From positions 21,159,054-21,223,053 of the forward strand of contig NC_092562.1 in assembly GCF_037975245.1 (NCBI RefSeq): a DNA stretch of 64,000 bases. Direction: 5' to 3'. The translations under genes were made by a program, and so were the position numbers. Positions 5,013 to 62,873 of the stretch are shown piece by piece. This DNA comes from Apostichopus japonicus. Its lineage: Eukaryota > Echinodermata > Holothuroidea > Aspidochirotida > Stichopodidae. The notes below the pieces were generated by a model. The model was not told the origin of the DNA. It saw nothing but the letters and a program-made list of their open reading frames with translations, and ran no database searches. Numbering within the stretch: the stretch's first letter is position 1; the number at the start of each line of letters is the position of its first letter.

Positions 5013-5029
5013 CATGGTCCACTGTTAGT

Positions 5030-19400: not shown

Positions 19401-22400
19401 ATCTAAACCCCCTACCAACAGTATTGCAAATAGATGATGTACATACAAGAGCTGTGATGAATCTGTAATGTGTGTGTGTGTGTACACTGCATTTGAGCTT
19501 TGCTCTCCAACAATGTCAATAGTGTTAGGAGCAATAATCAACAAAGAGCAGAGGAATAAAGAAGTCAACTGGAACTAATTTCTTTACCAAACATTCCCTC
19601 TTCCAACCCCAGCATAGTGTGGTGAGATTCTTTGTTAATGGAATGGAGACTTAGTCCATTCAACTGTGCACATGATTGGATGATGTTATACAGTAGGCTT
19701 ATTATAGGCTTGTGTGGAAGTCTTATCCCAGTACAGCCCTGACTGGCTGTGTAAACTGAGGGCATACTGTAGGTACAGTACTGTACGTATACTGTAGCTT
19801 GTGCAATATACTGTAGGTAGGAGAAGGTATGAGAAGTATGTATGTAGTTCAGAACTATCAACAGACTACATGTCTCTCTCGATCTAGAGTGACTTTACTT
19901 GCAAAGTGCTTTATCTAATACATGTATTACACACATACAAACAAAACTGTAGACATTAAAAGGCCAAGGACTAGGAGCCAGTCGAATCCACTTTGGCTCC
20001 CGGTCCTTGGTTTTTGGCAGGACCGGGACCATTTTTCCAAGACCTGGAGCCATTTCTGAAATCAAGAAGATGAAATGTATATATTTGCATACACTGCAAA
20101 CCTCAGAGAATACTTGATAGATACAGTATATATGCACAATCCTTTGTTCAGTTTGTTTGTTTGTTTGTTTGTACGTTCTTCTTTTGTTTTGTTTTCTTGC
20201 ATAGACTCTCCTTTAAACCATAGAAGCTTCTACATTGTTGTTTATCAGTTTTATCAGATCTACAGTGTATTTCTCAAAATAAGATCAACTATGATCCCCT
20301 CTTAGATATTTGCACCAAATAAAGATCCAGTGAACGATTTGTGTACACTTTATTTAAATCTGATTTATGATGCCTGACATGTTCTTTAAAGACCGTTTGA
20401 TCTGTAATAAATTTACTGTATGTTTAGCAACGTTTGCAGTAACTCCAACCTAAAATAAAAAAATTTAGACTTTTCCTTCCTTGTAGAACCGACAAGCCCA
20501 GCTACTGAACCTGTGTTGAACTACATTGTATTGATATTTTGAATAACAAATAAAAAAAAGGACTATGAAACAGAATTAATCTAACACTGGAAATCAACTC
20601 AAAAAGTTTTTCTTTAACTTAACCATAATTAAGCCCATCTGATGATAATAAGTTAGATCAACAGTCCTATACATTTCCAATCTGACCAAGCTTCATTATA
20701 TAGCAATTCTCCTTGTAAAAAATCTACCACTAATACCAACACACAGATGGTATTACTTCCATGGAGAGAAGGTCTGGCCATAGTCTTCTCCACAGTACAG
20801 TGAGTTTCTGCACACCACCGTTTCAGTTGGTTTTTCCTCATCAGTTTTATTATCTGCGGTTAGCTGCTTCTGCTGTGCGCCATAAATTTCTTGCAAGCCA
20901 GTACGGAGAGCCTATTAAATTCTGAGTGATACCATGCATACAATATCTGCGGTTGTTTAGTACAGGTGAACTACTAAACTGCCAGGAGTTGGTGGACGAT
21001 GATATTATGTGGCTTTATAGACTGACCTGAGATACTCTGTACCCTTGGGGTGTCAGCACTGTTAGTATTGCATTCCTGAAAGTTTTATTGTCACTGTGTG
21101 CTTGCTGTACAGTGTGTGTGTGTGTGTATATGTGTGGCAGACATGACAGGCTCTTATGGAGTAAACAGAAAATATCTGGATGGACACTGACTCAAAAGGT
21201 GGTCTTGTTTCAAAATAGATGTACTTTAATAAGGTAGATTTGACAAAGGAACATACTTTTAAATGGAAGAAACTTGAAAAATTATAGGACTTTTGATTTA
21301 AAGTTGGATGCAAACAACCAAATTAAAACAATTAAGTAGTGTTACTAATTATGACATAAAGTAGAAGATAGCAAAAGAGGTACAGTCTTTGTATAAAATT
21401 CTGTGAATATGCCCCCTACATATATACATTACAATGTATAACATTTATAGTTCTGTGAATATGCCCCCTACATATATACAATACAATGTATAACATTTAT
21501 AGTTCTGTGAATATGCCCCCTACATATATACAATACAATGTATAACATTTATAGTTCTGTGAATATGCCCCCTACATATATACAATACAATGTATAACAT
21601 TTATAGTTCTGTGAAATGCCCCCTACATATATACAATACAATGTATAACATTAATAGTTCTGTGAATATGCCCCCTACATATATACAATACAATGTATAA
21701 CATTTATAGTTCTGTGAAATGCCCCCTACATATATACAATACAATGTATAACATTTATAGTTCTGTGAAATGCCCCCTACATATATACAATACAATGTAT
21801 AACATTTATAGTTCTGTGAAATGCCCCCTACATACAATACAATGTATGACATTAGTTCTGTGAAATGCACCCTACATTAACAATACAATGCTCATTAGTT
21901 CTGTGAAATGCCCCCTACATATGCTTAATGTATAACATTAGTTATGTGAAATGCCCCCTACACGTGTACAATGTAGATAACATTAGTTCAGTGAAATGCT
22001 CTCTACATATATACAATGTATAAAATTAGTTCTGTGAAATGCCCCCTACATACAATGTATATAACATTAGTTCTTTGAAATGCCCCCTCCACAGTGTATA
22101 GTGTAAGTGATGTGAAATGCCCCCTATATACTGTATGTGTACAATGGTGTAATAAAATAGTGACTAAAGTCAAAAAATTATCCTTGCGACTCACTGCATG
22201 TCGTCAGTTTCAGTTTCAAGATACGGAATTCATTTAAAGGTTTCAAAGTCTGGATTACACTTTTATAAAATAGATGCTACTGAAAAATTTTAAAATGAGG
22301 ATGTTAAGCAGATCTGTTGATTCTGAACCATTGTTTTTGGAATTACATGCACAGTTAGTCAGGTAACAGAGTTTGTGTAGTTACATACAGGTATATGTGA

Positions 22401-25400
22401 AATATCAATTTTGATGAGTCAAATCTAAAATAAGTAAAATCTAACACCATTTTACAAACTGCAGCATGCACGTGACAGATCTGCTGTATAATGTGAAACA
22501 TGTTGAATACAAAATATGTTAAACTTGTTTACTTCGCTTCCACACTTACCTGTCTTCTCACAACATTAGCAGTCTTGCTCCACCATTGCTAGAAGGAACT
22601 TGTAAACTTTTTAACACTGGACTACCAGTCACTACTGACCCTCCCTCCCTCTTCTGCCGCTCATTGTGTCTGAGTGTGAAAGCAGACGTCAATATCAGTT
22701 GGAATGTACTTGTCCGGGTTCCCGTCGAGACATGGCTCACTTTTCACTGTGTTTACTGGAACAAGTTACAGATGTAGTGCATAATGTATTAAACGTACTA
22801 TTTGGAAATTATACAAATTATTGTAATTTTTTGGGTTTTTTTTTTTTTTGTGAGGAGCTGATGTTGTGGTTGGTGAGATAAACAATTTTCCTTCACCTTG
22901 ATTAAAAATCTCCTGGTTTGAATTTTCTCAAAACTTAAAAATTTTATAGATGTAACTTGTCCTGATAGTTGTTTTAGTATGACTGCTACAATTGATTATG
23001 TTATCTCTATTTAAATTCGCAACACTTTTCTTTTTTCCCCCAATTTTTGGGTTTGTGAAATGTCAGCGAGAAAGGGGTTCTTTTCAAGTTTTTCTTAATT
23101 CTGTTTTTTTTTTTGCCCCCTTTCTGTTTCTGATTTCATAGGACACCTTTGACTCTCTTACATATTTGGATGGATCATCAAATGGAGGTTCTCAAGCAGT
23201 GGCTCAGGTAACTTAAATGTTTGTTTCCCTCTCTTCTCTCTCTCTTGTATCCACCCTTCTATTGGCCCACGGTATACCTGGTTTACCTGTATAACTGGTA
23301 TACTGGCCTACAGTATACCTGGTTTACAAGTTGGTTTCACACATGTTAGCACTGGACCAGTGGGCGTCCACTGACTCGCTTCATTCCAGTCCAGTTGGAT
23401 ATGCCCCTATCCTGTGAAGTTCACATAACTTAAGTTTGTACCATTGGGTAACATATTAAAACCTGTTTTTTTTTTGTTATATCATGATGATCCATGTTAT
23501 ATTATGATAGCCAGACACTTTATTGTCCATTTGATGAAATGGAAAATTACAACTAGAAAGTAAATTAAAAGTAAAGCCCAGGACCCAATGCACCGTTCCA
23601 GCTCTGCTCTGTCATATACACCTAGTCTTTTGCTATGGTAGGCAAACTGATCTTTTTCTATATAACAATATACCTTTTTCAGCAAGAAGAAGTTGAAGGA
23701 CCACCACCCTTTCCAGAAATTTCATGATCATCAAAATTGGCAACATTTTAGTACTTCCGTTAGTTCTACGTAATACTGTGTGCTAAAAATGTTTCCCCTT
23801 GTACCTGTAATATCGCCACTATTAAGTTGTGAAATAGAGCCAGAGGCCTGCAGTATTCCCTTTGCAGTATGTTAAAGTGGCTGGCTAAGAGTTTACTCTC
23901 TCGATCTGTGTGCATTTTGAACAAGTGAAGAACTTTATACTCGTAGACTGTTCACGTATTTCCTCTTTCTGAAACCAGGCTTCCTTTTGGGCTTGAATAA
24001 AGATGTCAGCAAACTTGACTGCTTTTACCTTTTGGTTGTGTTTTAGACCCGGAGGCTCTCTGGAGTCGGATCCATTATAGTCATAATTGTCTTGATAAAA
24101 CATATTTTAAGTTTCACATTTCAAGAAATGTTAATAAGTTTCAATAAAAGACGGAAATGAAGCTGTTTGGAAATATGTTTTAATGCCCTGTAAAATTGCC
24201 TAGATGTGCATTTGCTGGCAGGTATAATTTAGGTAGAGCGTCTGGCGTTGTTTCATCCTAGCTCAGGTAAACAGGGTTTTTTATTACTCCGGGATATTAA
24301 TGGAGTAATGTAGTACTGGAAGTGAGGTCTTTACTAGCGATGAACTCAAACACAGTGCAAATGGAATGTCATTTACCCTGTACACTAGAGAAAATTGTGA
24401 ACTTAAATACCTGGTTCGTCTTTGATTTCATGAGACTTGCAGATAGGCCCCATCATTCAGTAAATTGGTTAATAGAATGACCTAGTTACTAAATTGCTGA
24501 CTGCTAAATATATTTACTCATGCCCCCATTTTGGAGAACTCTGTATGTGAGTGCATATGAGTGCATTACACTATGAAGATGTCGTGAGATGAATCAGATG
24601 ATACAGAACCTACAGCATTATCGAAGGCTTTTATTGTCTGGTCGGAAGGCAATGAATGTATTAATGAGATTTATGCAGCAGTAGCATAGTTTGATCTCTA
24701 GAGTAAGGCAAATATGTCACCAAACACAGAACTAGTATTGTTCGATACAGGTGACAAACGCCTACAGTGGAATTATGACCTTCCTTACCGGTTCGAAGCT
24801 CTGGACATACAATCAGCGTCCATGGCCTAGTTGGTTAGGGTGTCCGCATATAAAGCGGGAGGCCCGGGTTCGAATCCCGATGGAGGCTGGTAGTTTTTTT
24901 CACTGTTCTAAAATTTCCAACTCATTACGTTTTCAATTATTTATATATATATTTATTTATATATATATATACATATACACATACATACATACATACATTT
25001 AGGTATCATTCATCTTAGCCTACAGTGGTTTGGTTTGGAGTATTTCTGTAAGCTTCCTAACTGTCAGTGATCTTCCATACCGTATGTTTTATGGGGATGA
25101 TGGTTACACAGCAGTTTAAGTTTCAACATGGTAATAAGCTACAAAGTTACAAACAGTAATACCTTCTTTATAACCTCACTTGTAAACTTGAGGTCTCTGG
25201 TTCAAATCCACTTCAAATTCTTTCCTCCTCTCAACCTAATATTATCAACACGGATTGAATGAAGCGAATTTCAAACATTCTTAAATTCCTTTGTATTCAC
25301 AATCGCAAGTTGTTGGCAACTGTGCTTGTATCTTCCCCTCCCCCCCCCACCCGCACCCCCCAAAAACCATAAATAAATATTGTATTACGTTTAACTTACG

Positions 25401-25532: not shown

Positions 25533-28500
25533 ACGCTTGGCTTGTGTACACGATATCTCAATAAGGAAATGATGTATCATGATGAAACTTGTTGGGTGGA
25601 TAGCCCATAGTAAGAGGAAGATCCCTATTGTTTTTGGTGCCCGCAAAGGTCACCAAAGGTCAGTTAGATGCCAAAAACCAATATATTAAAAACAGCAATA
25701 ACTCCCATTGACAGGGTCCGACATGGTTGATATTTTGGGAGTAGTTGTGAATGGGGTAAGGCATCGTTTCCAAACATAACGGTAATGTGATCGAAGGTCA
25801 ACAAAGGTCAATTAATGATAAAAAACTAGTATTTTTGCGATAACTTGAGAACGAAATGTCCGTTAGGGTTGGGAGTTGCTTCAATGTAATCCAATTGTCG
25901 ACCCGCACCTGGGTGACCCTTGACCTCAATTTGACCTTTGGTGACCTTTACATGTTTTTGGGGATTTTTACAGTTTTGATGCTATTTTCAGATGTCAAAG
26001 GTACCTTCTGAACATAAATGTCAATAGGTTGACCCCGTGTGACCTTTATGTGCGAAGTTATATGGGGTCAAAGTTTTTCGGTCGGAGTTAGGATGGTTGC
26101 ACAGACTTGTCGTTTTGTTTTTTGGAATCAGGAGATTAAACTACATCTGAAACCAAGGTCAAAAGGTCAAAGGTCACATTAGAAAAAATGTGCTTATTTT
26201 GGGAGGAAACGAGCAAAAAAGAAAATGTTTGGTTTTGATGCTAGATTTGGATACCAAAGGTACCTTCCGATCAAAAATGTCAATGGGTTGACCCCCGTGT
26301 GACCTTCGTGTGCGAAGTTATACGAGGTCAAAGTTAATTTTCAGACATTTAATGCAATAACTCCCAGTTCCAAGGTGTGACGTGGTTGATATTTTTGGAC
26401 AAGTTGCAAATGGTATAGGGGAATATTTTCAAACTTAACGGTCATGTGATCCAAGGTCACCAAAGGTCAATTAATGATAAAAAACTAGTATTTTTGCGAT
26501 AACTTGAGAACAAATTGTCCGTTAGGGTTGTGAGTTGCTTCAATGTAATCCAATTGTCGACCCGCATCTGTGTGACCCTTGACCTCAATTTGACCTTTGG
26601 TGACCTCTGGTGACCTTTTTGTGTTTTGTGGATTTTTACAGTTTCGATGCTATTTTCAGATGTTAAAGGTACCTTCTGATCATAAATGTCAATGGGTTGA
26701 CCCCCGTGTGACCTTTGTGTGCGAAGTTATACGAGGTCAAAGTTAATTTTCAGACATGTAATGCAATAACTCCCAGTTCCAAGGTGTGACATGGTTGATA
26801 TTTTTGGAGTAGTTGCAGATGGTATAGGGTAATATTTTCAAACTTAACGGTCATGTGATCCAAGGTCACCAAAGGTCAATTAATGATAAAAAACTAGTAT
26901 TTTTGCGATAACTTGAGAACGAATTGTCAGTTAGGGTTGGGAGTTGCTTCTACGTAATCCAATTGTCCACCCACATCTGGGTGACCCTTGACCTCAATTT
27001 GACCTCTGGTGACCTTTTCGTGTTTTGGGGATTTTTACAGTTTCGATGCTATTTTCAGATGTTAAAGGTACCTTCTGGTCATAAATGTCAACAGGTTGAC
27101 CCCTCGATGAGCTTTGTGTGTGAAGTTATACGAGGTCAAAGTTAATTTTCAGACATTTCAGGCAATAACTCCCAGTGCCAAGGTGTGACAAGGTTGATTT
27201 TGTTGGACAAGTTGCGAATGGTATAGGGGAATATTTTCCAACTTAGCGGTCATGTTATCCAAGGTCACCAAAGGTCAGCTAATGTTAAAAAACTAGTATT
27301 TTTTATTTAGAAAATGGGCAAAGAAAACATGTTTGAATTTTTAGAGTTTTGATGCTCCGTTTAGGTCTCACCGATCAAAAATGTCAATTGGTTGACCTAC
27401 GGGTGACCTTTGTGTGTAAAGTTATGTATACAAGTTCAAAGTTAATTTTTAGACATTTAATGCAATTAAATCCCAATACCAAGGTGTGACACGGTTGATA
27501 ATTTGGGACAAGTTGTGAATGGGGTGGTGGAACATTTTCAGACTTAAAGGTCATGTCATCTGTGGTCACCAATGTTATCATATCTGTTGACCCGCTTGTA
27601 GGTGACCTTATACTTCTTACATTTTCGACGCCATATTTAGATCTCAAAAGTGCCTTTTGATCAAAAATCCGATCACATTTTGTGATCACAAAAGTGTTGG
27701 CTATAGTGTTGGTTACTTTATGTGTACATGTAGGGCCACAATTGCTTGGACTATTTGAGCCCAATCTTGCTTGATAATATGTGTATTGTAATATACCCCA
27801 AGCAAGGAACCACAGTGCCCTTGGGCTCTTGTTGAGTTGTCATTCTTCCTGTGAAAATCTCCGAAAAAAAGTAACGTATTAACTTTGTAACAAGACAAAA
27901 ACAAAATGGATCCCGTTTGGTCTGATGTACAAGATGCAGTTAGGGAGAACTTGACAAGGTTACAGTAGCTACAGTTAACTTAAAAAAGTAGAAAGAAAAA
28001 GTGCCTGCAGCTCACAGGAAAAGTAATGATATTAAAATATTCATCTAATAGTAGGTAATAAAATAACAGTATGATCTATTATGTTTATCTCTTCAGCTTG
28101 CAAAAAACATGAGATACAAGTTGGACAACTTTTTAGAAGTTTTAAACGCTAACAAGAAGACCGTGGAGAACCTCTACAAGAGTGACTTGGAAGGCAGACA
28201 GAATCCGTACAAGAGTTACCGATCGTTACCGCCCACGTCGAGCACAAACTGTTGTAATCTGGTCAATTCAGATCAACTTGAGTAAGTTCTTACATTTTGT
28301 CCTATTTCTACCATAAGTGGGTGTACCGTCTAAATTCCTGGTTGTCAGAAGAACATGTCATCTTCCAAACTTTCTTAAAATGAAATTCAGCCATTTATGG
28401 TCAAATAATTCCAAAAGATAGATTCACCAATCTCATGAACCTGTTTTTGGAAGTACATTGTATTTATCTCACTCCTGTCTTACATATCTTCTATCCACAA

Positions 28501-34500: not shown

Positions 34501-37500
34501 TCATAATTTTTTCATCATACAAGATATTGAGAATAGATGTGTCACATGATATCAGTTAGATCAACTTACTTGAGTATTGATTTAGCATATACAAAAAATG
34601 CCAATCTTTTTGTTGTTTATATTATTGATTATAAAACCATTTCACACAATCATAAAAGGATTGTCAAGTCTGAGACAGAAACATTTATGTTCTTTTGAAT
34701 TTGAAATTTACAATCAGTCCTGATCAAAGTTGATGAAACCAAAATGCATCATTTGAATCTTTGTCGAATGTTCATAATCGTTTATTTTGTTTTCTCTTTC
34801 CTCAGATTCTCTGATTCTTTACATCAGTTCGGGACAGACTCTGGACCTGAATGAAACCAGCGCTATTATCAACACAGTCATTAATGAGAACAGACAATTA
34901 AACAATAGAGTCATTGTTATGACCTATGCTCTGTTAGCAGAAGGTAAGCAGGGTCTTGGGAAATTTGAATTAGGCCATATTTATGACTGACTATCCTTTT
35001 CCTATTGTAACCCCCCCCCCCCCCCAACCTTTTGTTATGTGTTATGTTGTTGGTTTCACCATGGTAGTTGGTTGAGCACTAAGTTACCATTGATAGTATA
35101 GATACTCATCTTTAAGTTTGGTACAAGATAAGTACATTGTATGGACTCGGTATAGAGCAGAGTTTGTTTCCCTGTGATAATCTTGCTTACTGTGCTTCAG
35201 GGGCTGTATTCATGTTGTGTGGATTCCTTTTGTAAATTGACAAATTGTCTAGGGAATAGAGAGATGGATTTACTGTCTGTTTGCAATTATACATCTGTGA
35301 TATATATTCATTAGGTATTAGTAACATCAATGTTTCTCATTAACAGTGATTGATGGGAAACCAAGCATGGTTGAACTTGGATTCCTGAGAGATCTGGCGG
35401 GACAGGATAACGGCATAGCTGAGCAGCACTCAAGCATGATGCCACTTAGACAGGTAAGGGAATGTAATGGTAATATATGTTTATGTCAGGAAGACAAATA
35501 GACATGGTGAGGGGGTGTGAACAGGGCCAAGAATGATGCCACTTAGACAGGTAAGGGAATGTAATGGTAATACATGTATGTGTATGTAAGGAAGACTGAA
35601 ATAAACATGGTGAGGGGGTGAACTAGTCTATGGCATGGTGAGAGGGGTGGACAGGGCCAGGAATGATGCCCATTAGACAGGTAAGGGACTTAAAGGTAAT
35701 ACATGTGTATGTAAGAAAGACTGAAATTAACATGGTGAGAGTTTCGGTAATCACTTTGGCAGGGGTGGGACATGCAATGAAGGTTATCAATAACATTCAT
35801 TTTGTTTTCTGTTCACAGAAAGGAGTGATGACAGTTTTGAATCAGATCAGCGATTTGCCATCGACAGTGGGTCGTTTCTATTCCATATTCCGTCCTCCCG
35901 CTGATTGGGGAGTCACTTACTCTTTACCGTACCAAGATCCTCTCGGAAAAGGTAAGCGTGACCGCAGGCGAACCGGACAGACAAACCTGGGGGGTAGTTG
36001 CTTCATTCCTCTGTTATTTTGAGTAAGAGGAATTAATGGACAATGAATGTCCCCAATTAACCAACTAAAAGTGCCAAACCATCTATCATCAATGATAGAA
36101 TGTGAGCAATCATCAATATGAATGGAAGAGTGATGATTTCATTCCTTAACCCTTTTGCAGAGAATTATCAGTATGAGAATATTATGAGCAGGGATTAATT
36201 TTAAGTGTTAAAATTTTATGTAGCAATTTTTGATGGATCTGAACTTTGGGTCTCTCATAATATACAACAGGTTTTATGTGTACAAAAGCTGTTATTCATC
36301 TTTGTACTTGTCTAGCAGTGGATCCATATCGTGCAAACTCACATCTTACCCACTTCACCCATTGGTTGTATTTGTGAAAGTCATTTCGGGATGGAAGATA
36401 TTCAAATAATCACTCACTTTTCTTGTTTTACAGGGTTGATCATCAGCGTGACCAAGCCTTGCTTCAAGGAAAGTCACTTGATTGGCGTAATCGGCCTTGA
36501 CATCAGCGTCGCCGATCTGCTACAGGAGGTGTCGTACTTCGAAGAGGGCATCAAATCATATGCATTTATGATTGACAAACAAGGTGAGTGGCTCAGAAAA
36601 AGGGGTTAATCGGACTTTGTGTCCCAATTGTCACCGACGTGACAGCCTTTTGATTGACAATCATCATTACCAAATGAACTTTAAGATCATACACCTGATA
36701 ATAACCTCATTCTCTTAAATTATTAAGGCGGCGTTGTAATTGCCAAGGATTTCTAAATTAAATCAATTTGGTGACAGTTCATCGTACAATATCCATTATC
36801 ATATCATGTGTCCGATATATCTCTTTATTCAATGGTATGTTTTTCTATTTTTACTTTCATTTTTACTGTGTTTCACAGGTTACACTGTAGCTCATCCCTC
36901 TCTGACCAAGCCCATCAAGATGACCGGTCCTCCTCTCTTTGCCAACATTGAACACTTTGAAGAAGCCGTGGACTTTGAAACGGTCAAAGCTGCCATGCTA
37001 AGGTATTATAACAGGTCTCTCCTTCTACTAGTATGTTATTGGTCAAATACAAAACACATCTTGTGGCCCTTCTTTAAGACCAAAGTTACAAAGTAAAGAA
37101 AAAATAATGTCCACCCACAGAGTGGTTCAAGAAAGGCCCGTTAAGAGTTATTAATGATTCAATAATGGACTTGAACAGTTAAATCTCTATTGTTGATGTT
37201 GGTGACAATGGTGAATTCACTCCCTCACCATTATCTTATTCCATCCCGTAAATCTTCATCTTGACACAGGTTAGATAAATTTATCTGCTCAACATTGTTT
37301 CGTTTTGCTTTGTCAATAATTTTTATCTTAGCTCATAATTTTGTCATTTGGTCTTATGGTTGTCTTTCAGAGGAGAACCTGGCACTGCGACACTGAAGTT
37401 ACCAGCTGGTACTAGTTCTCTTAAAGAGGTGATCTACTCTTGGCAACCGGTAAGTAACCTACCTTATCCATCCCCCCCCAACATCCACCCCCTCCCCACA

Positions 37501-40500: not shown

Positions 40501-41690
40501 CTTTTAAACGTGATAACTCAAGAAAAAGAGAGTACAAGAATCATAGTGCTTCTTGCAGAGTTAAAAGGTGTGGTTGCTGTTGTGATACATTCACATCTTT
40601 CTGTTATGTTCTGTAGTCATGTGATATCTCTAGGCATAAATTGAATTGATATGCAGGCCATTGGAGAGGGGGAGCCATGGGGGAGGGGCCAATGCCCTTC
40701 GGCATTAGGTCATCCTGACGTGTCTCTCCATATCACTACTGACATGTACAATTTATCAAATTTTCTCGATAGTTTGATATTCATTGGCGTCATTTTTAGC
40801 TTTATATGGGATTGATAAGATAACAGTTTCACTTTATGTTTGTTATTCATAGCTGCCATATCAATAAATATATCAATATGATTTTATTGTTTTACATATA
40901 GGAACCATCCTAGTTATCTTGTTATATACTGTATTTGTTGGATTGCTATTTGTTACAGTACACCATCTTCACATTCACTGTTTCTTTGTTGCTAGGTATT
41001 TATCAACAACTAGTGGAGTGGTATGGATGTATCCTGGAACGCTACTAGCTAAGACCTTTGACCCTTCACGAAGATCATGGTATGTCTACTAGTAGAGTAA
41101 ACAGTATCTTAGAGCTTTTTCTAACAATGTTAAACATTGAGTGTTTTGGGATCTTGAGAAAAAATATATAAAGAAGATCCCTTAAATTTATATCTTTTCT
41201 ATTCTGTTTAAATCTGATATACCAAGAGTAAATTTAGCCTGCAGACGGTGTAGTCTGATGAAGTGATAACTCCCTGACCCTGTGCCTATTGCAGTGTTTC
41301 ACGATTTTTTCGTCGTTCAGACATTTCATTTGAAAACTGAAGCTAGAAATTTATATTGCTTTAAGTCTTTTATATTTTACTATATATATTAGTAAAGATC
41401 AACACACCAGAAAAATTGCACTTCAAGACCGGTTTCGTCCTTTTGGGACTCATCAGGCGATGGTTGGAGTCGAACCCTGTACCTTTGTGTCACAGACCTA
41501 AGTCTGTACCACTTAGCCACAGTGATTCTACTGGTGTGTGAATGCTGATGATAGGCTGTCTATAACTGTTATTGAGGGCGTATTACACACATGTGACGAT
41601 TGTACAGGGTGCACCCCTGGTGCTTCTGAACCTGACAATGTAGACAGAATGATCACTTTAAGAGGCAAGCCGAGCTTTAATTATTCATTA

Positions 41691-41733
<43 letters not shown>

Positions 41734-44700
41734 GTGTGTGTGTAGAATGTGTGTTTTTTATGCAATGTGTTGTTTCCTTTCAGGTATAAAGAAGCACAAA
41801 ACAACCCTGGATTGATCACACTCTCATCTCCGTATCTAGACATCGGGGGAGCAGGTTACATCGTTACCATCAGCACAACAATCTTTGACGGAAAGTGAGT
41901 TGTCATCTATGTCAAGTTATTACTGAATTTAAAATAAATAAGGAGGCACAAATAAAGTGATTCATTGAGTGAATTATTTGAAAGCTATATGGTAAGGCTG
42001 AAATTCTGAAAGAACAAGTTACAGTTTTATTCTCTCATTTGCTTTTATTTAACTGAATTTTTTTTTCCCTTCAAATTATGAATGGCTTAAATTTACTGGA
42101 CCATTAAGAATGTGCTCCAAAAATTCACTGTCTTCAAAACAAGGCAGCACTAATAGCAAATGAAGGAATTTCACAGCTCTTCACAATGTGTTTGTATTCT
42201 TTTTCTTTTTTTTCTTTCTTTCTGGAAGATTCTTTAGGATAAACGCAAAAAGATACAAGTTCATCATTTTAAAGGTTATCTGCATAACTCCTTGTTATGC
42301 CAGAAAGTCATACAAAACTGGTCACCTATGGTCAATCTTCAATTCATGTCATATTGCTCTCTTCTGAGAATTTGAGAACATATGTTCATATTAATTTTAA
42401 TCATAATTGGTTGCATTGGGATATTCGTGAGAGTGTAAAATATGTTTGGAAACCTGTAGCCATTTTTGGCATGCTGAAATCTGCTAACAATACAGCTGGC
42501 ATTTAGTCTGCTTTCAAACTCCACATGTTACTGTACAAAAATATAGATTTTAACTTTGTAAGAAAGATATTTATTAAAATTAAAAACCTGGAATCATCCC
42601 AACCTGAACAGACCTTAAGGTTGTCTGAGATATTAATAAAAAAAACTCTTGATAATCCAGGTTCTTACACTGTGGTGAAGTAGTTTTGCTATTTTGTAAA
42701 TGTAACAGTATACCAGGTCACCCGGTTCCATAACGTGAAATACAGAACCGTAGTAGAGTCCTTCCTTGTTTACTCTCTTTAGCTCTGTTCTTCCCATTTT
42801 GTGCTATACGTATACAAGAGTATAAATCAGACAAAAAACAGAAATATTTGACTAGTGACCAATTACATACCTAGTAGTATGTAGGATACACTACAGAATG
42901 AGGTGGTGGATATTACATTCTGATAATCCAATTTATTGTAAGGGTCCTAATAATCCAGGTTCAGCCGTAAGTCGAGACAAACTGTGTTCCAGTTGTAATG
43001 TATCTCCCTGATGGTGGTAGTCTTTAACTTAACGAGCGTCTCGTTTTTTGTTTTTCTTCGACAGCTCGGCTGGTACCCACACTGAGGCCGATCCTATTGC
43101 GGCCGTCATGGGCATTGACGTAACACTGCAGTATCTGTATAAGTTACTAGTGGATACACTGCCTGTATGCTTGGAGAAGAATATAAGGTACTGGCCAAGA
43201 CTCCGTCTCATAAACAACAACAAAATGTCACAGCACAATCAGGATAGCATGCCAATCTGAAAGATTGACATTGGAATGTGAAGTAGGAAAAAATTGTCTC
43301 GTGACAAATTTGCACTGGGTTTTCATCAGGAAATTAATAGTTGAAGTGCTCAATCATTTAAATTTAGTAAGAGCAAAATTTTGTAACCAGATAATTTGTT
43401 ACCAGATTAGTTGTGACTAGTTACACACATATCTAGCTAGATATTGTAACTATATGAAGAAAAAAAAATTAAATAGATAAAAATAGCATATGATGCATAG
43501 TTAATTGTGTTTGTGGGCAAGCTACTCATGCTAACATGCAAGGGGCGGAAGCACACATCAGAGAATGTCACTATGTATTTAAAAAATAATAATATTTCAA
43601 ATTATTATTATGATTTTTTTATTTGCTATTTACTTTTCCTATTTGGTAGGTGCTTTATAATGGACAACAAGGGGTATCTGGTGGCTCACCCTCACATGGT
43701 GGAACCGATACACAAGGCTCCTGTGGAACAACAACATATAACACACAAGGTATGTAGTAAGACTGCCCTCCCCTCTATCCTACATCCATTACATGCAATT
43801 GGATGCAGTCGAAACTTTGTTTAATTCTGACCATTGTAGTGGCTATGCTTTGGTTCCCCCATATTGGTGGCTCTGCTTTGGTCCCCCCCCCCCTCCTAAG
43901 TAGTTAACTTGGTAACTGACTAATCCAGTACAGAACTTTTTTTGCAAACCTTATGTGTACTTTTGGGAAGACCCCAGGTTAACTAAGTAGAATGTTCTTG
44001 TGTTAGAAAGGTTATACTATATGACATAAGATTTTCTTTTTCATACTTTCTCCACCTTGGTATCTTAGAAAAGGAAAACTTGGCAGAGTGTGATTCAAAA
44101 TTACCGTATGGGTGGTATGCTAGTATTGGGTACCTGTGTGAGTAATAATGGTGGAAATGTTACATTCTGTTATTAATTTCCTTCTTTACCTCTTTTCTTC
44201 TATCCCCCCATTTTTGATTTAGGAGGTCAGCATATCCAACGACCTCCTCTACCAGAGTGAATTTGTCCAGAAGTTACAGTGTAACAGTTACTTGAACGGG
44301 ACCATCCAGCGGTACTACTCATTCAATACCAGCTTCCAAGGTTTGCTCTCCAACAAGCATAACAGCGAACACTGCATCCTGTACAAGATGACAGGCATCT
44401 CGGGAACCAATGCGTTTGTGGGTATTGTGAACGAGACATGTGACACCATCACTGAATTCTGTCCCTGTAGTATGGTAAGCGTACCTGAGCACTGTGGCCG
44501 ATATCAATTTGAGGCCGTTTTTTGTTGCGGTTATCATCTTGGTTAATATTCTCCTGGAAAAACAAAACGTCCTTCTATGGTTTGCCCGATGGACCGGGTC
44601 ACCGGTTTATTTACAGTAATTAAAACACCCACGTCACCTTTTCCTTTCCACTGAACTGTTCAGACAAATGTAAAAGCAAAAGCGAGGGTCAATCGAAAAA

Positions 44701-47700
44701 TCCTGAATGCTCCCGGCTAACCAAGTATATTATCTATTCTCTCTATTTCAGAGTGATCGTATTTGCCTGAATTGCAATCGGATGGAACAGGCGGAGTGTG
44801 AATGTCCATGTGAATGTGACCTCAGGCTTGACCCCTGCTCAGGTGACCTAGTGAAAGATGAAGACAAGTAAGTCAATCCCACCATTTGTATATCAGAACC
44901 AACCCTCTTCCCCCCCCCCCCCGCCCCCTTTCCCATTTCCCCTCTGGTTATTCTATATGTTAAAGGTCTGCCTTTTACTTCATGACATCACAAAATTCCA
45001 CGAATATCTGTACCATACCCATACCACTCTTCCCAACCCCTCATCCCTCCCCGTACCCCTTTCTCCCCCTCCCCATACCCCTGTTCCCTCTATCTCCTAC
45101 CCCCTTTGGTTAATCCACATATAAAGGTGTACCCTGTGATAATGATATCAGAAGTTCTGTAGAGTGACATGGAGGTAATCTATTACTTGGTATTGGTTCA
45201 ATAGCCAATGATGCTTGTCTATGCATTTATGTCAGTAATGATTTCATTTGCACTTAAAAAGTGTCCTGTTTTCTTTTTAAACTAACCAATAACTTCTTAC
45301 ATTTGTCCAAGAAGTTTTCCTTTTCTTGCCTCGCTCTAATTCCTTCTCAGCAAATGCTGTCAAACTCAAATCATTCCTTGCTGGCAAGCTGGCAGGCTAG
45401 CTTCTTCCAATACATGTTTGTGTCATGTCATGTTAAATCCATGTGTTTTATTGTATCCAGTTAAGGGTTTATGAAAATGGCATCCTGGTATCAATATTCT
45501 TGCGTTATTTTCTTTAGCCAAGCCGTGTAATTGACTCCGTGTTTCCTGTAGGTGTTTTTTCAGGTAGTAACAATCACAAGAAAACAAGAGATATGAAACC
45601 CACATATCCATCCAAAATCTGGAACTCAAAACATGCAAAATAAATAGAAATAAAGTAAACAAAAACAAAACATTAATTAAACAGGGAAGAGGAAATAAGC
45701 TGATTTAATCACTGAGTGCTTATTAAGCAGTATAAAGAGTACATTATTAAATCTCCTTCATGAATTGTTCATTATATCCACATCGGTCTTGTGATGTTTG
45801 TTTATGGCAATATAACTTTCCTGCTGTGTTAAGATTCACACACAAAATTTGTGACTTTGTTGCACTTTGCGACTCCACAGTTGTTTGACAAATAGTCAGT
45901 CAGTTGACATGAGAGTGTTTTTCAATTTTCAGCGTACTGTCACAGCCCTAAAAAAAACACATTCAAACCAGATCTTTGGCTGATTGACCTATATGTCCCA
46001 CGGCCAACGATCTGTGACTGTAAACTGAGCGTACGTGTGCATTATCTACTGAAATTCTGTATTTCTCTATGGAATTTACTTTGCCACATGTATAGAACCC
46101 AAGAAAGAGATCATTGCAATGATTTCTTAGTTTACTTTGTGGGAATGCTAGACTATTTTACTCTTCTGGTATTATTTAGAGTTGCTGCATCTTTTTGGCA
46201 GGTATCAAGCCGTTTGATCAAGTTTCTTTGTTTTCTAAAGAAACAGCCGTCCTCTTCAGATATCAATGCAAAAAAATGTAGATAGTTGATTCCACTGTAC
46301 TAGTTATTGAAGGAATAATGATGAATATTAATGGTACACTGGCTGATTTCCATTTCTGTGGTTTGTTTTCAGGAATCCTGCATGTCCAGGACAAGAAGAA
46401 GATGATACTCTACCGGAATTACCCGAGAGCCTGATAGATGACCTGAAACAGTGTACAGATACCAAGTGTAAAGGAAGAACCAGTTGGGAGTAAGTGTCCT
46501 TCCTTTATTCTCAGCCCACCTTTCCATTATCCTGTCAGCCCCCCCCCCCCCCAAGAAGAACCAGTTGGGAGTAAGTGTCCTTCCTTTATTCTCAGCCCAC
46601 CTGTCAGCCCCCCTCCCCCAACCTCCACCATCATTGGTAAATGCTGAAATATAGACTCATTTTTATTTTTTCTTTAAAAAAATTATATATATATATTTTT
46701 TAAATTTATCTGATATTATTTATTTTATGATCAGTTCATGCTTTGGAGTTCTCAACTGTGAATGGTGCGTAATAGGGAGTGATAACAAAGCTTTGAGGGA
46801 GCCCTACTGTGCCAGCCAGATAGAGTGCTTTGGTGGTGTCGTTGGTGCTGCCACACCATATCAGGACCCATTAAGTAAGTTAATCTGCAAACGATTGGGG
46901 TACAAATTGAACTTAATTCTACAGTACGTAACAATGTGTAACTTAATAGTAAGTCAAACACCCAGTACCTCCATCTTAAATAGAAGATCAAACACCCAGT
47001 ACCTCCATCTTCCAGATCATCTCTTAAAAGTTGTTATATAAAGTTCATTTTTTACCAAATCATGTAATATTCAAAGCCTTATTAATTCTTTATATCCAAA
47101 TACGGATAATGAAAACAAAAATTGGGGACTACCAAAAATTTGATGAAATTATTTTATTGTTATGTTTGCAAATCTGTGACTTTTGTGACTAACCTGATTG
47201 TTTTTGCTGCAACTTTTTCTGGGGTAAGAGATTTACGTTATAGATTCCCTATCCAGGTACCCCTGTAATCTTCATAGTGGTCCCGCTCTGTACCACCAGA
47301 TTGTGACATCCATACAACTTCATGTCGCATACTGTCTTTAAATTTAAATTTTAATCTAAATTAAATTTTAAATTAGCAAAGTTTGATCCGGTACTCGGTA
47401 TGTCGCCAGTTCCCATTTAGGTAGATATCACTGTCATTGCTATATCTGATTTTCTTCCGGCAGATTTTAGCAAGGACCCCTACCACCACGGACCGGGGTC
47501 CCATATAGGATCAGTAGCTGGGGCCCTGCTCGGTATCGTCACCTTCCTCATCTTGGTCATTTACGTCTACTGCCACCACATTCATAAAGAGGCTCGTCGT
47601 CAGAGCGAGTTGGCCCACCACGGTTCCCACGCATCCGTCCGGGTCAACGTATCCACAGAGAACGTAGCCGTGATTGAGGGGCAAGACGGCGACGACCACG

Positions 47701-48793
47701 GAAACCCTCCAGGAGGGGGAAGATGTGAGTACGATTAAGGGCGACCTGTAAGCCAGAAGGTCATCGGCTTCAAGGAACTATAAAGTGAAGCATGTCTGTT
47801 GGAAGCATAGTTCAGTGGAGATTGCCTTCTTCATTGAATCAACCCAGTAAATGTGTGACCTAAATGGTTGTCATAGCATTGTAATAAAACCATGCATCTA
47901 GTTACTCCTGAAATGTCACAAGTTCACAGAATTTATTTCAAATTATTTTTACATCCGACCAGTTATTGTGTCTTTATATATATTTCCTTTAAGTCTATGG
48001 CCTGTTCATCGATTCTACCCATAAGTACTGTTATTATGAACAGAATCACATATATTAATTTCTTTAGTATCAGTCTTTTGAGCATCAGCACAGAGTCGCA
48101 TTTCAAAAGCTGTTAACCTTTACTAGTTGTGTTAGATAGTTTCAATGGTGACATGCTATCATTCTCTGGCCCTGCTGCTTATGGTTAGGTTTTCACACGA
48201 TCGAAAGACACATTTAAAGATTTGATCCAGTAAAGAATACTGTTCACCAATATATTAGTTCCCTTCTTCTGTGGCACGATATTTGTTAACTCGGTACAAG
48301 TTCATTTCATGCGACGTTCCAGCATTATTTTTGTTTAGGAGTAACCGACCTTGTACAATTTCCTGTTTCTACAGATGGACAGGGTAACATTGCTCTGGCT
48401 GCTATAGAACCTCCGAACCCTTACCACCAGGCACCGAGGAGGGGCATCAGAATCTGGAGAAGGCATCCCAACGCCCCCAGCGAGAGTGACCACGGTTACA
48501 GTACCATGACACCTCATGAAGACAGCGAATACCACTACGTGGAGCCTGAACCCATTGTGGTGGCGCCGAAACACCAAATGGTGGATCCGCCTCCTGGCGT
48601 GGTCCACCTGCCACGACCAGAGTCCCCGTCTGCGTTTACGTCGCTACTGGACTGCGAGAGCGACGCGGCGACCTGCGGCAGCGGGCCCATCACTATTCCT
48701 AAGATCGACCCACCTCCTCAAACAGTACTTCCAAGGAAATCACATAGAGTGAGGACTCAGGTACAGGTTCATTCTGTAGATACAGTCTTTTGA
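13067..48793 (+). CDS. CACHD1: CACHD1: VWFA and cache domain-containing protein 1 (27 coding exons)
   Basis: Type I membrane protein related to the alpha2delta subunits of voltage-gated calcium channels. The vertebrate protein enhances Cav3 (T-type) channels and binds Wnt receptors. Hand-spliced exons total 4041 nt, 1346 residues, close to the roughly 1270 of the human protein. Layout: signal peptide about 1-28; VWA-N region about 150-300; VWA about 310-505, with DRGYG (320-324) where a MIDAS would read DxSxS; Cache-like regions about 515-830 and 880-990; Cys-rich 997-1120; transmembrane helix about 1136-1157; cytoplasmic tail 1158-1346. All 26 introns are GT-AG and phase-compatible. The start at 13067 is the first ATG in frame and directly precedes a signal peptide. 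Exon limits are given in separate entries. An extra alternative exon cannot be ruled out. Family identity is very secure. Confidence 0.95.
16439..16978. mobile_element. 540-bp TTAA foldback element
   Basis: Begins TTAAAGGATTGGTTCA and ends with its reverse complement TGAACCAATCCTTTAA. Similarity continues inward as long imperfect arms. An inner pair, GTGATGTCACATCCTCAC near 16614 and GTGAGGATGTGACATCAC near 16802, is nearly perfect. TTAA at both ends suits piggyBac-type target choice. It has no transposase frame, so it is non-autonomous. Confidence 0.75.
19964..20010. repeat. Imperfect hairpin, 16-bp arms
   Basis: CCAAGGACTAGGAGCC at 19964-19979 pairs with GGCTCCCGGTCCTTGG at 19995-20010 (14 of 16), leaving a 15-nt loop. 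A third related block, CCAAGACCTGGAGCC, lies at 20037-20051. No function inferred. Confidence 0.6.
21399..22145. repeat. 52-bp minisatellite, about 15 copies
   Basis: Unit reads TTCTGTGAATATGCCCCCTA then CATATATACAATACAATG. The first copies keep an exact 52-bp period (21450 to 21502). Later copies shorten and diverge to the right, the expected decay at an array edge. Frames on the - strand repeating [17 protein letters not shown] are translations of the repeat. Confidence 0.95.
23142..23207 (+). CDS. CACHD1: CACHD1 exon 2
   Basis: Residues 136-157, 66 nt, reading [18 protein letters not shown] and on. Acceptor TTTCATAG, donor CAG|GTAACT, phase 0 on both sides. Too short to be found from frame length alone; accepted on splice sites and phase. 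Confidence 0.8.
24816..24887 (+). tRNA. tRNA-like sequence (pseudogene or SINE head)
   Basis: 72 nt folding as a cloverleaf: acceptor GCGTCCA/TGGAGGC with one G-G mismatch, A-box-like TGGCCTAGTTGG, anticodon stem TCCGC/GCGGG around loop ATATAAA, and B-box GGTTCGAATCC. A T run follows at 24894, a pol III terminator. The loop would give anticodon ATA (Tyr), which eukaryotes rarely encode with A34, and no intron is present, so a tRNA pseudogene or tRNA-derived SINE head is likelier than a working gene. Confidence 0.55.
24937..25000. repeat. TA/CATA microsatellite
   Basis: Imperfect TA run passing into CATA repeats, just downstream of the tRNA-like sequence. Confidence 0.85.
25431..27833. repeat. 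2.4-kb AGGTCA-rich interspersed repeat with 400-bp internal units
   Basis: Opens with a perfect 13-bp hairpin (GGTTCCTTGCTTT, loop TTGC, then its complement, 25431-25460), then a GT microsatellite. AGCAAGGAACC recurs near the right end (27801-27811), followed by CAGTGCCCTTGGGCTCTTG. The body consists of repeating units marked by CAAGGTGTGAC at 26371, 26780, 27179 and 27480 (periods 409, 399, 301). Units carry AGGTCACCAAAGGTCA or its complement many times. No transposase or reverse-transcriptase frame is visible. Confidence 0.8.
25477..25530. repeat. GT microsatellite
   Basis: Long GT run interrupted by one ATGGGTG, inside the left end of the 2.4-kb repeat. It creates spurious Cys/Val frames. 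Confidence 0.95.
28097..28281 (+). CDS. CACHD1: CACHD1 exon 3
   Basis: Residues 158-219, starting [20 protein letters not shown]. The [11 protein letters not shown] stretch is alpha2delta/CACHD1-like and leads into the VWA-N region. Acceptor CTTCAG, donor GA|GTAAGT, ends in phase 2. Confidence 0.92.
28682..28788 (+). CDS. CACHD1: CACHD1 exon 4
   Basis: Residues 219-255, VWA-N region ([20 protein letters not shown]). Acceptor GCAG, donor CAAG|GTAAGA, ends in phase 1. Confidence 0.92.
29257..29395 (+). CDS. CACHD1: CACHD1 exon 5
   Basis: Residues 255-301, VWA-N region. [20 protein letters not shown] matches the alpha2delta-type pattern before the VWA fold. Acceptor TTCAG, donor AACAG|GTGAGC, ends in phase 2. 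Confidence 0.93.
30258..30342. repeat. 15-bp tandem repeat in intron 5, six copies
   Basis: Unit TCCATGGTTATTGCA, copies starting at 30258, 30273, 30288, 30303, 30318 and 30333. Because 15 is a multiple of 3, it reads as a PWLLH peptide repeat in one frame. It lies within an intron. Confidence 0.95.
30663..30807 (+). CDS. CACHD1: CACHD1 exon 6: start of VWA domain
   Basis: Residues 301-349. [12 protein letters not shown] is the first strand and metal-site loop of the VWA fold. The canonical MIDAS DxSxS is replaced by DRGYG, so only the Asp remains. Then a helix, [16 protein letters not shown]. Donor ATG|GTGAGT, phase 0. Confidence 0.94.
32403..32538 (+). CDS. CACHD1: CACHD1 exon 7: VWA domain
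   Basis: Residues 350-395. [20 protein letters not shown] is the second VWA strand with a Cys pair. Then [17 protein letters not shown]. Acceptor ATTATAG, donor ACAG|GTGATT (weaker than usual), ends in phase 1. Confidence 0.9.
32730..33008 (+). mobile_element. Possible LINE reverse-transcriptase C-terminal relic
   Basis: Open frame in intron 7 with [20 protein letters not shown], which resembles the YGxRAFSxAAPxLWN signature at the C-terminus of CR1/L2-type LINE polymerases, followed by an [10 protein letters not shown]-like end. No upstream RT motifs. Divergent, so the call is tentative. Confidence 0.35.
33403..33763 (-). mobile_element. 5'-truncated LINE 3' end (CR1/L2-like)
   Basis: The - strand frame 33488-33763 contains [16 protein letters not shown] and [14 protein letters not shown], the standard C-terminal end of CR1/L2-group LINE polymerases. 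A short 3' UTR follows, then a TTA-repeat tail at 33403-33420, as in CR1/L2 copies. It is inserted antisense in intron 7 and lacks the catalytic part of the RT, so it is dead. Confidence 0.8.
34150..34239 (+). CDS. CACHD1: CACHD1 exon 8: VWA domain
   Basis: Residues 395-425. [18 protein letters not shown] has the VWA helix carrying the third metal-site position (Thr) and an N-glycosylation sequon NHT. Acceptor TTACAG, donor GCTG|GTACGT, ends in phase 1. Confidence 0.9.
34806..34943 (+). CDS. CACHD1: CACHD1 exon 9: VWA domain
   Basis: Residues 425-471. [20 protein letters not shown] is the strand-loop normally read as DGxxxD in VWA folds, then [11 protein letters not shown], the last central strand. 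Acceptor CCTCAG, donor GAAG|GTAAGC. Confidence 0.93.
35347..35453 (+). CDS. CACHD1: CACHD1 exon 10: end of VWA domain
   Basis: Residues 471-506, [14 protein letters not shown] then MMPLRQ. Acceptor TAACAG, donor CAG|GTAAGG, phase 0. Its last 16-20 bases and donor recur twice in the next intron. Confidence 0.92.
35435..35700 (+). repeat. Triplicated exon 10 end with 5' splice site
   Basis: The block ATGATGCCACTTAGACAG|GTAAGGGA sits at the real exon end (donor 35454). It recurs with donors at 35551 (perfect) and 35681 (ATGCCCATTAGACAG). Shared downstream sequence (ACATGGTGAGGGGGTG) shows tandem duplication of about 97 and 130 bp. Confidence 0.9.
35819..35951 (+). CDS. CACHD1: CACHD1 exon 11
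   Basis: Residues 507-551. [20 protein letters not shown] and [20 protein letters not shown] open the first Cache-like region. Acceptor TTCACAG, donor AAAG|GTAAGC. Confidence 0.94.
36434..36583 (+). CDS. CACHD1: CACHD1 exon 12: Cache region core
   Basis: Residues 551-601. [17 protein letters not shown] is the characteristic Cache strand-helix motif, as in alpha2delta proteins, followed by [10 protein letters not shown]. Acceptor TTTACAG, donor CAAG|GTGAGT. Confidence 0.95.
36879..37002 (+). CDS. CACHD1: CACHD1 exon 13: Cache region
   Basis: Residues 601-642. [18 protein letters not shown] continues the Cache motif (DKQG-YTVAHP), then the acidic helix [17 protein letters not shown]. Donor AAG|GTATTA. 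Confidence 0.94.
37371..37449 (+). CDS. CACHD1: CACHD1 exon 14
   Basis: Residues 642-668, [20 protein letters not shown] then IYSWQP. Acceptor TTTCAG, donor CCG|GTAAGT, phase 0. Confidence 0.92.
37912..37984 (+). CDS. CACHD1: CACHD1 exon 15
   Basis: Residues 669-693, [20 protein letters not shown] then KYQT. Acceptor ATTCAG, donor ACAA|GTAAGA, ends in phase 1. Confidence 0.9.
38386..38580. repeat. 63-64 bp tandem repeat in intron 15, three copies
   Basis: AATACTTATATAT recurs at 38391, 38455 and 38518 in a unit that also carries ATCTGGTCATACATA and TTACATTCAACAGTTCC. The long frame over it is an artefact of the 63-bp period. Confidence 0.92.
39503..39645 (+). CDS. CACHD1: CACHD1 exon 16
   Basis: Residues 693-740. 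[20 protein letters not shown] then [16 protein letters not shown]. Acceptor TTTCAG, donor AAG|GTGAGG, phase 0. Confidence 0.93.
40137..40234 (+). CDS. CACHD1: CACHD1 exon 17
   Basis: Residues 741-773, [20 protein letters not shown]. Acceptor CCTCAG, donor AGAAG|GTAACA, ends in phase 2. Confidence 0.92.
40262..40352. repeat. 18-bp tandem repeat right after exon 17
   Basis: About five copies of CTCGTACACCTCGCCCCT starting 27 bp past the exon 17 donor. Pyrimidine-rich, so it could look like acceptor tracts. No AG is well placed. Confidence 0.92.
40996..41079 (+). CDS. CACHD1: CACHD1 exon 18
   Basis: Residues 773-801. [20 protein letters not shown] then RRSW, the end of the first Cache-like region as in alpha2delta (RxxW). 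Acceptor GCTAG, donor ATG|GTATGT, splitting the Trp codon. Confidence 0.93.
41400..41541 (-). mobile_element. tRNA-derived SINE-like unit with hammerhead core
   Basis: Read on the - strand: A-box-like TGGCTAAGTGGTA (41507-41519) and B-box GGTTCGACTCC (41466-41476), the layout of a tRNA-type internal pol III promoter. A 6-bp inverted repeat (ACAGAC/GTCTGT) lies between the boxes. A hammerhead core follows nine bases past the B-box. The unit is bracketed by a 9-10 bp inverted repeat (ACACACCAG at 41402, CTGGTGTGT at 41531). It lies antisense in CACHD1 intron 18. Confidence 0.65.
41427..41456 (-). ncRNA. Hammerhead ribozyme core
   Basis: On the - strand: CUGAUGA, stem II GUCC/GGAC closed by CAAAA, GAAA, palindromic stem III ACCGGU, and cleavage triplet GUC (predicted cut between 41427 and 41426). 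All core residues match consensus. The stem II/loop is almost the same as in schistosome Sm-alpha hammerheads. Stem I is poor: the first flanking pair is C-U and only scattered pairs follow, so present activity is doubtful. Confidence 0.6.
41692..41745. repeat. TA/TG microsatellite in intron 18
   Basis: TA run then TGTGTGTG, ending about 40 bp before exon 19. Confidence 0.95.
41784..41894 (+). CDS. CACHD1: CACHD1 exon 19
   Basis: Residues 801-838. [20 protein letters not shown] then [16 protein letters not shown], the conserved alpha2delta/Cache strand pair. Acceptor TTTCAG, donor AA|GTGAGT. Confidence 0.95.
43065..43187 (+). CDS. CACHD1: CACHD1 exon 20: second Cache-like region
   Basis: Residues 838-879. 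[20 protein letters not shown] is the Cache MGIDV motif. [10 protein letters not shown] follows. Acceptor CGACAG, donor AAG|GTACTG. Confidence 0.95.
43650..43749 (+). CDS. CACHD1: CACHD1 exon 21: second Cache-like region
   Basis: Residues 879-912. [20 protein letters not shown] mirrors the DKQG-YTVAHP motif of exons 12-13, consistent with two related Cache units. Donor AAG|GTATGT, phase 0. Confidence 0.95.
44223..44474 (+). CDS. CACHD1: CACHD1 exon 22
   Basis: Residues 913-996. [20 protein letters not shown] then [20 protein letters not shown], with several Cys and N-glycosylation sequons. Ends EFCPCSM. Acceptor TTTAG, donor ATG|GTAAGC. Confidence 0.95.
44752..44867 (+). CDS. CACHD1: CACHD1 exon 23: Cys-rich segment
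   Basis: Residues 997-1035. [20 protein letters not shown] has alternating Cys, probably disulfide-bonded near the membrane. Acceptor TTTCAG, donor AA|GTAAGT. Confidence 0.94.
46373..46489 (+). CDS. CACHD1: CACHD1 exon 24
   Basis: Residues 1035-1074, acidic ([20 protein letters not shown]), then [12 protein letters not shown]. Acceptor TTTCAG, donor GGGA|GTAAGT. The exon end and donor are duplicated 81 bp downstream. Confidence 0.93.
46472..46620 (+). repeat. Duplicated exon 24 end with 5' splice site
   Basis: AAGAACCAGTTGGGA|GTAAGT appears at the real exon end (donor 46490) and again with donor at 46571. The flanking intron sequence TGTCCTTCCTTTATTCTCAG is repeated too, so this is an 81-bp tandem duplication. 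C runs mark the junction. Confidence 0.92.
46735..46874 (+). CDS. CACHD1: CACHD1 exon 25: Cys-rich segment
   Basis: Residues 1074-1121. [16 protein letters not shown] and [16 protein letters not shown] form a PSI-like Cys pattern (CxxxxxCxWC). Acceptor GATCAG, donor TTAA|GTAAGT. Confidence 0.94.
46952..47010. repeat. 34-bp direct repeat in intron 25
   Basis: TCAAACACCCAGTACCTCCA plus TCTT occurs twice, at 46953 and 46987. Confidence 0.9.
47464..47724 (+). CDS. CACHD1: CACHD1 exon 26: transmembrane helix
   Basis: Residues 1121-1208. [20 protein letters not shown] is the single transmembrane span (about 1136-1157). [11 protein letters not shown] starts the basic cytoplasmic side. A true membrane span with a long tail separates CACHD1 from GPI-anchored alpha2delta proteins. 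Donor AGAT|GTGAGT. Confidence 0.96.
48375..48793 (+). CDS. CACHD1: CACHD1 exon 27: cytoplasmic tail and stop
   Basis: Residues 1208-1346, stop TGA at 48791. Pro-rich tail with Tyr-containing stretches ([20 protein letters not shown]) that may be phosphorylated. Ends [10 protein letters not shown]. More GC-rich than its surroundings. Acceptor TCTACAG. Confidence 0.96.

Positions 48794-59116: not shown

Positions 59117-62873
<3,757 letters not shown>

Follow-up and report, generated by a model that had tools for sequence, protein, structure and literature searches.

A 341-bp repeat of the sea cucumber Apostichopus japonicus with A- and B-box motifs and a type I hammerhead: a probable retrozyme of Sm-alpha-like layout

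The repeat described here, found on the minus strand of a 64-kb stretch of A. japonicus DNA (64,000 nucleotides, hereafter the window), probably represents a non-autonomous retroelement, here in a worn copy, of the kind known as non-LTR retrozymes or Sm-alpha, multiplied through the RNA steps proposed below. The sequence itself provides a 341-bp unit in which an A and a B box accompany a type I hammerhead, with the B box supplying part of stem I and a T-run after that stem; the copies are circularly permuted and at times longer than one unit. Judged on these features, the anatomy is that of a metazoan non-LTR retrozyme, with a layout closest to Sm-alpha of schistosomes, rather than that of a plain SINE. 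From these features we infer self-cleavage, transcription by Pol III and circular RNA. What sets the unit apart is the double role of its B box, which supplies one strand of stem I; the other strand is directly adjoined by a T5 run.

The copy in the window

The sequence-only reading of the window had described an A-box/B-box pair fused to a hammerhead core on the minus strand, and the layout is real: both boxes, CTGATGA, GTCC/GGAC, GAAA and GTC were all read in place (Table 1), the boxes and the core with its GUC together taking up 41404-41541 (-). The interval given for it, 41400-41541, holds for the motifs. The element itself is larger, the match to the family unit spanning 41381-41720 (-) with 78% identity over 348 columns to the unit of L079 (blastn, E 1.5e-69). 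Here and below, u1 is the first base of the unit after the predicted cut, L with a number denotes a fetched locus and C with a number a genome contig. The position of the cut, 3′ of C41427, follows established knowledge of hammerheads.

Table 1. Features of the window copy, with the forms found in the family
Feature	Position	Strand	Remarks
Whole element	41381..41720	-	about one full circularly permuted turn of the 341-bp unit; both ends TA-rich
A box TGGCTAAGTGG	41509..41519	-	direct reading; family form TGGTCGAGTGG at u249
B box GGTTCGACTCC	41466..41476	-	family form GGTTCGATTCC at u292
Outer stem I, 5′ strand, inside B box	41466..41470	-	ACTCC here, ATTCC in the family; from folds and pair counts
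Inner stem I, 5′ strand	41457..41462	-	CATCGC here, CTTCGC in the family
Hammerhead core CUGAUGA	41450..41456	-	nine bases after the B box
Stem II GUCC-CAAAA-GGAC	41437..41449	-	GTCC 41446-41449, GGAC 41437-41440
Hammerhead core GAAA	41433..41436	-	
Stem III, bare palindrome ACCGGU	41428..41433	-	monomer: one pair and CCGG loop; dimer: six pairs
GUC triplet	41427..41429	-	direct reading; predicted cleavage 3′ of C41427
Inner stem I, 3′ strand	41421..41426	-	TTGAAG here, GTGAAG in the family
Outer stem I, 3′ strand	41415..41419	-	GCAAT here, GGAAT in the family
T5 run, Pol III terminator-like	41411..41415	-	abuts stem I

Two exact B boxes GGTTCGANTCC are present in the 64-kb window against 0.02 expected from shuffles; the second lies inside a tRNA gene at 24815-24889 (+), which ARAGORN (bacterial settings) assigned to Tyr with the unusual anticodon ATA and which scored 50.5 bits with Rfam. 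The loose core CTGANGA-N13-GAAA was found three times against 0.17 expected, and only the core of the repeat has the GTCC/GGAC stem II. The copy is worn. Its stem I, already called weak in the sequence-only reading, retains four of six inner and three of five outer pairs, and no hammerhead appeared in its predicted fold. No Rfam hammerhead family passed its cut-off within the window: the copy falls below that of Hammerhead_1, and its top score, 24.2 bits with Hammerhead_HH9, compares with a cut-off of 52.

The element is antisense to exon-like plus-strand ORFs of a CACHD1 homologue and therefore presumably lies within an intron. The ORF at 36740-37096 (+) resembles PDB chains named VWFA and cache domain-containing protein 1 (E 3.9e-08). 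Exon-like ORFs of the plus strand are found at 36316-37096 and 43501-48793, one of them with a weak, sub-cut-off Cache match; six other ORFs that were tested gave no Pfam match. The window also holds minisatellite-like tandem arrays at 61197-61511, 26256-27303, 21399-22052 and 4335-5015, with units of 38, 409, 52/103 and 82/89 bp, respectively.

A deuterostome host had been supposed from the window, and the mitochondrial contig C35 bears this out. Its cox1 has AAA at expected Asn and ATA at expected Ile positions, which is the code common to echinoderms and flatworms. Next to it comes nd4L (Pfam PF00420, E 1.8e-19), in an echinoderm gene order. Pieces resembling cox1 were also seen in several frames on C29 (14745-31219), and may represent mitochondrial DNA in a rearranged or a nuclear copy.

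The genomic family and its ribozyme

The repeat belongs to a family, as had been proposed. With up to three mismatches, its 30-nt core was found at 576 genomic places, and the core pattern with a free loop gave 220 matches; the reversed controls gave none in either case, which rules out a chance core. A 141-base query returned at least 44 matches when 40 of 986 candidates were scored. Places of the family are present on every contig from C1 to C23, and a search of the viral contigs with the family gave no match.

The copies were studied in 76 fetched regions of 1201 bases and 60 shorter ones. As the 76 regions contain 79 exact cores, most fetched copies are single-core. Tandem copies define the unit of 341 bp (GC 41.6% in the L079 unit): dimers with a core spacing of 340 or 341 occur on C4, C9 and C10, one with a spacing of 352 on C8, and a trimer, three cores spaced by 341, on C14; three is the longest core run among the places listed. 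A side finding is a pair of 157-bp tandem units, 98% alike, at L007:1646-1959, in which core and tail are joined to another upstream piece that replaces the boxes.

The sequence-only reading would have failed had the boxes and the core belonged to different repeats. When the boxes alone served as the query, the ribozyme was present in 20 of 20 fetched loci (20 of 41 listed matches, 40 of 739 first-look candidates having been scored). When the upstream body alone was used, it was present in 19 of 20 (20 of 40 listed matches, 40 of 515 first-look candidates scored), the twentieth, L122, having a weak ribozyme of 20.5 bits. Boxes, body and core are therefore one unit in the loci tested, and separate repeats are ruled out for these; more distant heads without a ribozyme may exist. 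The converse sampling started from the hammerhead: 20 of 59 listed matches were fetched, and all 20 fitted the family model with at least 60.5 bits, so that the idea of several hammerhead families in the genome was rejected on this set. Two of these 20, L088 and L102, have missing or partial boxes upstream.

The family has the make-up of a type I hammerhead, with CUGANGA, GAAA and GUH, stems I-III and an opening at stem I. Stem I consists in the family of an inner helix, CUUCGC/GUGAAG, and an outer one, AUUCC/GGAAU, the two being separated by UAC and U. Once ten duplicate loci had been dropped, all six inner pairs were found in 54 of 69 cores, so that family members able to form the stem that is weak in the window copy do exist. 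At least four of the five outer pairs were present in 61 of the 69 deduplicated cores. Both features together arose in 496 of 200,000 random flanks of unit composition. The proposal to run a hammerhead covariance model on the genome was followed: Rfam Hammerhead_1 (RF00163) gave 13 matches over cut-off, covering nine of nine chosen loci, and its 34-bit cut-off was passed by 50 of 59 listed genomic matches (74 candidates scored). The best Rfam alignment of the family unit was obtained with Hammerhead_HH9 (RF02275), a conserved intronic motif of amniotes; it covered the full model with no non-standard pair, but its 40.0 bits stay below the 52-bit cut-off.

Covariation was examined in 127 aligned matches, drawn from 100 sources. 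In this alignment 93.8% of cells pair, six pairs have double changes, and double-change cells number 9 against 3.4 expected (sd 1.8), a count reached in 3 of 500 shuffles; since the copies closely resemble each other and the model guided the alignment, this covariation is modest and suggestive only. Among single loci, L027 has an inner stem I pair changed from C-G to U-A. In L085, which at 450-492 contains the top-scoring hammerhead of the genome scan, the stem III palindrome is ACGCGU instead of ACCGGU and thus still palindromic. The palindrome ACCGGU is lost in L095, L096, L102 and L103.

With no more than a palindrome for stem III, the ribozyme is likely to act as a dimer. The sequence-only reading had already held that ACCGGU favours a dimer, and such a fold was obtained in silico: the co-fold of two copies reached −51.5 kcal/mol against −23.7 for one monomer, with a six-base ACCGGU duplex between the molecules and the cores open, while the best fold of the monomer engages the palindrome otherwise. 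Folding z-scores of single hammerheads were unremarkable: −1.06, −0.32 and −1.33 for three family copies and 0.76 for the window copy.

Promoter-like parts, copy ends and mode of spread

On the unit map the A box stands at u249, the B box at u292, the core at u312 and the T-run at u12. The two boxes are thus 43 nt apart, at the spacing of tRNA genes, which suits a tRNA-type promoter of putative function. The B box has at most two mismatches in 61 of 69 cores and the A box in 44 of 69, copies truncated at the 5′ side being counted. Within bases 6-22 after the cut, a run of at least four T is found in 58 of 69 cores and one of at least five in 47. In its 3′ half the B box doubles as the 5′ strand of outer stem I, whose 3′ strand is followed by the T-run; owing to this overlap, conservation of the B box alone is no proof of promoter function. 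A tRNA identity of the head was considered and dropped: Rfam tRNA had no match at E≤5 in one family unit, and ARAGORN (bacterial settings) found no tRNA in eight loci.

If the T5 run terminates, the promoter would yield an RNA of about 120 nt, leaving about 220 nt of the unit unmade, so full units would need read-through or transcription from outside. Promoter, ribozyme and terminator may even form an interlocked cassette of about 100 nt, a self-promoted Pol III circle factory that switches between a short RNA and a template, a reading of the sequence that we regard as possible though doubtful. Were it true, termination would yield a short RNA whose U-tail is removed by its own ribozyme, and read-through would yield multimers that are cut and ligated to 341-nt circles. 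Engineers have combined Pol III promoters, ribozymes and tRNA ligase for making RNA circles, and the cassette would be the natural counterpart of such a layout.

It is also conceivable, but in our estimation unlikely, that the unit is a promoterless retrozyme, its A and B boxes being fossils, or the B box being kept as a strand of stem I, and its transcripts arising by read-through from host genes. This would leave the preservation of the A box at no more than two mismatches in the 44 cores unaccounted for, as this box lies outside the ribozyme; the 43-nt spacing and the upkeep of the T-run in 58 of the 69 cores likewise speak for a working promoter. The same idea accommodates the missing tRNA match, the role of the B box in outer stem I, which gives its conservation another cause, and a T5 run that would stop Pol III early. 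It also agrees with a review that, in the part drawn on here, describes retrozymes as seemingly lacking promoters (PMC7761336).

The ends of the copies were analysed in 66 loci, i.e., the 76 less ten duplicates. The 5′ ends are spread round the circle from u2 to u335, and 52 of the 66 lie within u1-u236, upstream of the expected Pol III start. Spans exceed 341 nt in 23 of the 66 copies, 400 nt in 13 and 500 nt in five. By contrast with the scattered 5′ ends, 47 of the 66 3′ ends fall in two TA-rich places, u44-52 (29) and u73-88 (18). A (TA)6 tract was found within 60 nt of 37 of the 66 3′ ends and 20 of the 5′ ends, and at both ends in 15, the background being 16 of 554 distal 60-mers. An inverted piece is present inside the fetched 1.2 kb in 20 of 76 loci. 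No target-site duplication beyond the TA repeat was found in 46 loci, from which the 20 with inverted partners and the ten duplicates had been left out. Ends at u341 were seen in L019/L020 (one event) and in the second unit of L052; these were not counted as evidence, since the search pattern itself stops at u341.

A circular or multimeric RNA template, such as has been described for related repeats in other animals, would account for copies with arbitrary starts and lengths beyond one turn, and the 3′ ends fit priming on UA-rich stretches. Genomic copies as such cannot distinguish circular from multimeric linear templates, and the TA tails may reflect slippage instead of target choice.

These ends weigh against the element having been the plain SINE that the sequence-only reading saw in it. 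A conventional SINE of tRNA type would have its linear Pol III transcript copied by a LINE, and the ribozyme would be a passenger with a role in trimming the 3′ trailer. Both boxes, the short unit without coding capacity, the interspersed copies and the variable 5′ ends would all be at home in such an element. What disagrees is the 341-bp unit with the 52 of 66 copies that begin in u1-u236, ahead of the expected start, the 23 of 66 longer than one unit, common 3′ ends about 50 or 87 nt beyond the cleavage site and past T5, the 46 loci with no duplication other than the TA repeat, and the absence of an A tail from the 3′ flanks inspected. The conventional tRNA-type SINE is thus already disfavoured, and we consider it improbable.

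The tandem units, the inverted neighbours in 20 of 76 loci and the 15 of 66 loci flanked by TA repeats on either side could bring to mind a satellite-like tandem repeat, fragments of which were scattered by DNA-level events such as TA-microsatellite recombination and inversion, with no RNA step. Such an origin seems very improbable to us in view of the mostly single cores (79 in 76 regions), their places on each of C1-C23 with core runs of three at most among the places listed, and the ribozyme fold kept in most copies, which suggests selection on RNA.

In the retrozyme reading that we favour, multimeric RNA would arise when the internal promoter of Pol III type is used and the T-run is read through, or else by transcription from outside. 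Neighbouring hammerheads would pair via ACCGGU and cut each unit, and the 341-nt RNA would be closed by a host ligase. A reverse transcriptase acting in trans, perhaps Penelope-like, would prime on UA-rich parts of the circle at TA-rich targets, and as a consequence of such priming copies would start anywhere and could exceed one turn. In this way, the copy ends suggest a means by which TA-rich targets may prime a template that has no ends.

The genome contains open frames of 910 aa and 835 aa in which both RVT_1 and GIY-YIG exceed their Pfam cut-offs, a make-up that looks Penelope-like. The 910-aa frame (C13; L152:3030-8786) sits among inverted, truncated Penelope-like copies, and the 835-aa frame (C16) adjoins a TA repeat. 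The nine GIY-YIG stretches that were read, 40.5 kb in all, gave no hammerhead at E≤1, so that the link to Penelope-like elements rests on the TA repeats and inverted arrangements of two stretches, and the frames are a candidate partner, no more.

Comparison with known systems

Sm-alpha is transcribed by Pol III. It and Sj-alpha of Schistosoma are SINE-like elements of about 335 bp with a type I hammerhead and high copy number, and Sm-alpha-like elements are reported to derive from tRNA-Gln, according to the descriptions consulted (PMC2770079, PMC8490949). The sequence-only reading had likened the repeat to them, which is fitting as to layout and size, SINE-like and hammerhead-bearing with a 341-bp unit, this being a likeness of layout known from descriptions. 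As far as those descriptions go, the sea cucumber unit differs in its phylum, in a head unrecognisable as tRNA, in a stem III that is a bare palindrome and in the B box being part of stem I.

Metazoan non-LTR retrozymes were described by Cervera and de la Pena in 2020, in the part of the paper used here, as non-coding tandem repeats of 170-400 nt with a type I hammerhead and GC below 50% (PMC7229834). The sea cucumber unit agrees with the retrozymes so described, which are tandem in units of about 150-450 bp, in having one hammerhead per unit and a GC content of 41.6%, and 341 bp leave little room for an LTR, PBS or PPT. Expression as linear and circular RNA of unit length further characterises retrozymes and would be expected of the 341-nt unit. 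Unlike the retrozymes so described, the unit also carries A and B boxes inside it, together with a T5 run. Neither "echinoderm" nor "sea urchin" appears as a word in the main texts of PMC7229834 and PMC7761336. In the titles and abstract beginnings of the open literature searched, neither a hammerhead in echinoderms nor a retrozyme with Pol III boxes was found. The genome paper of A. japonicus, in the portion considered, gives SINEs as 0.02% of the genome and has no ribozyme class in its table of non-coding RNA (PMC10344927).

A parallel for the palindromic stem III is given by satellite 2 of newts and HHR_Amex1 of the axolotl, with a unit of about 330 bp and a one-pair stem III closed by a palindromic tetraloop; HHR_Amex1 cleaves poorly alone and far better in dimeric constructs, as the consulted part of the paper has it (PMC7229834). 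The sea cucumber unit is of similar size and has a one-pair stem III with a palindromic CCGG loop. A and B boxes are not described for the newt and axolotl elements in that part of the paper (PMC7229834), the comparison being one of hammerhead and unit size. With an A/B-box pair fused to a ribozyme in a farmed and sequenced animal, the question of how retrozymes are transcribed becomes directly addressable. The family would add echinoderms to the hosts of retrozymes and link the SINE-like Sm-alpha to the retrozyme class.
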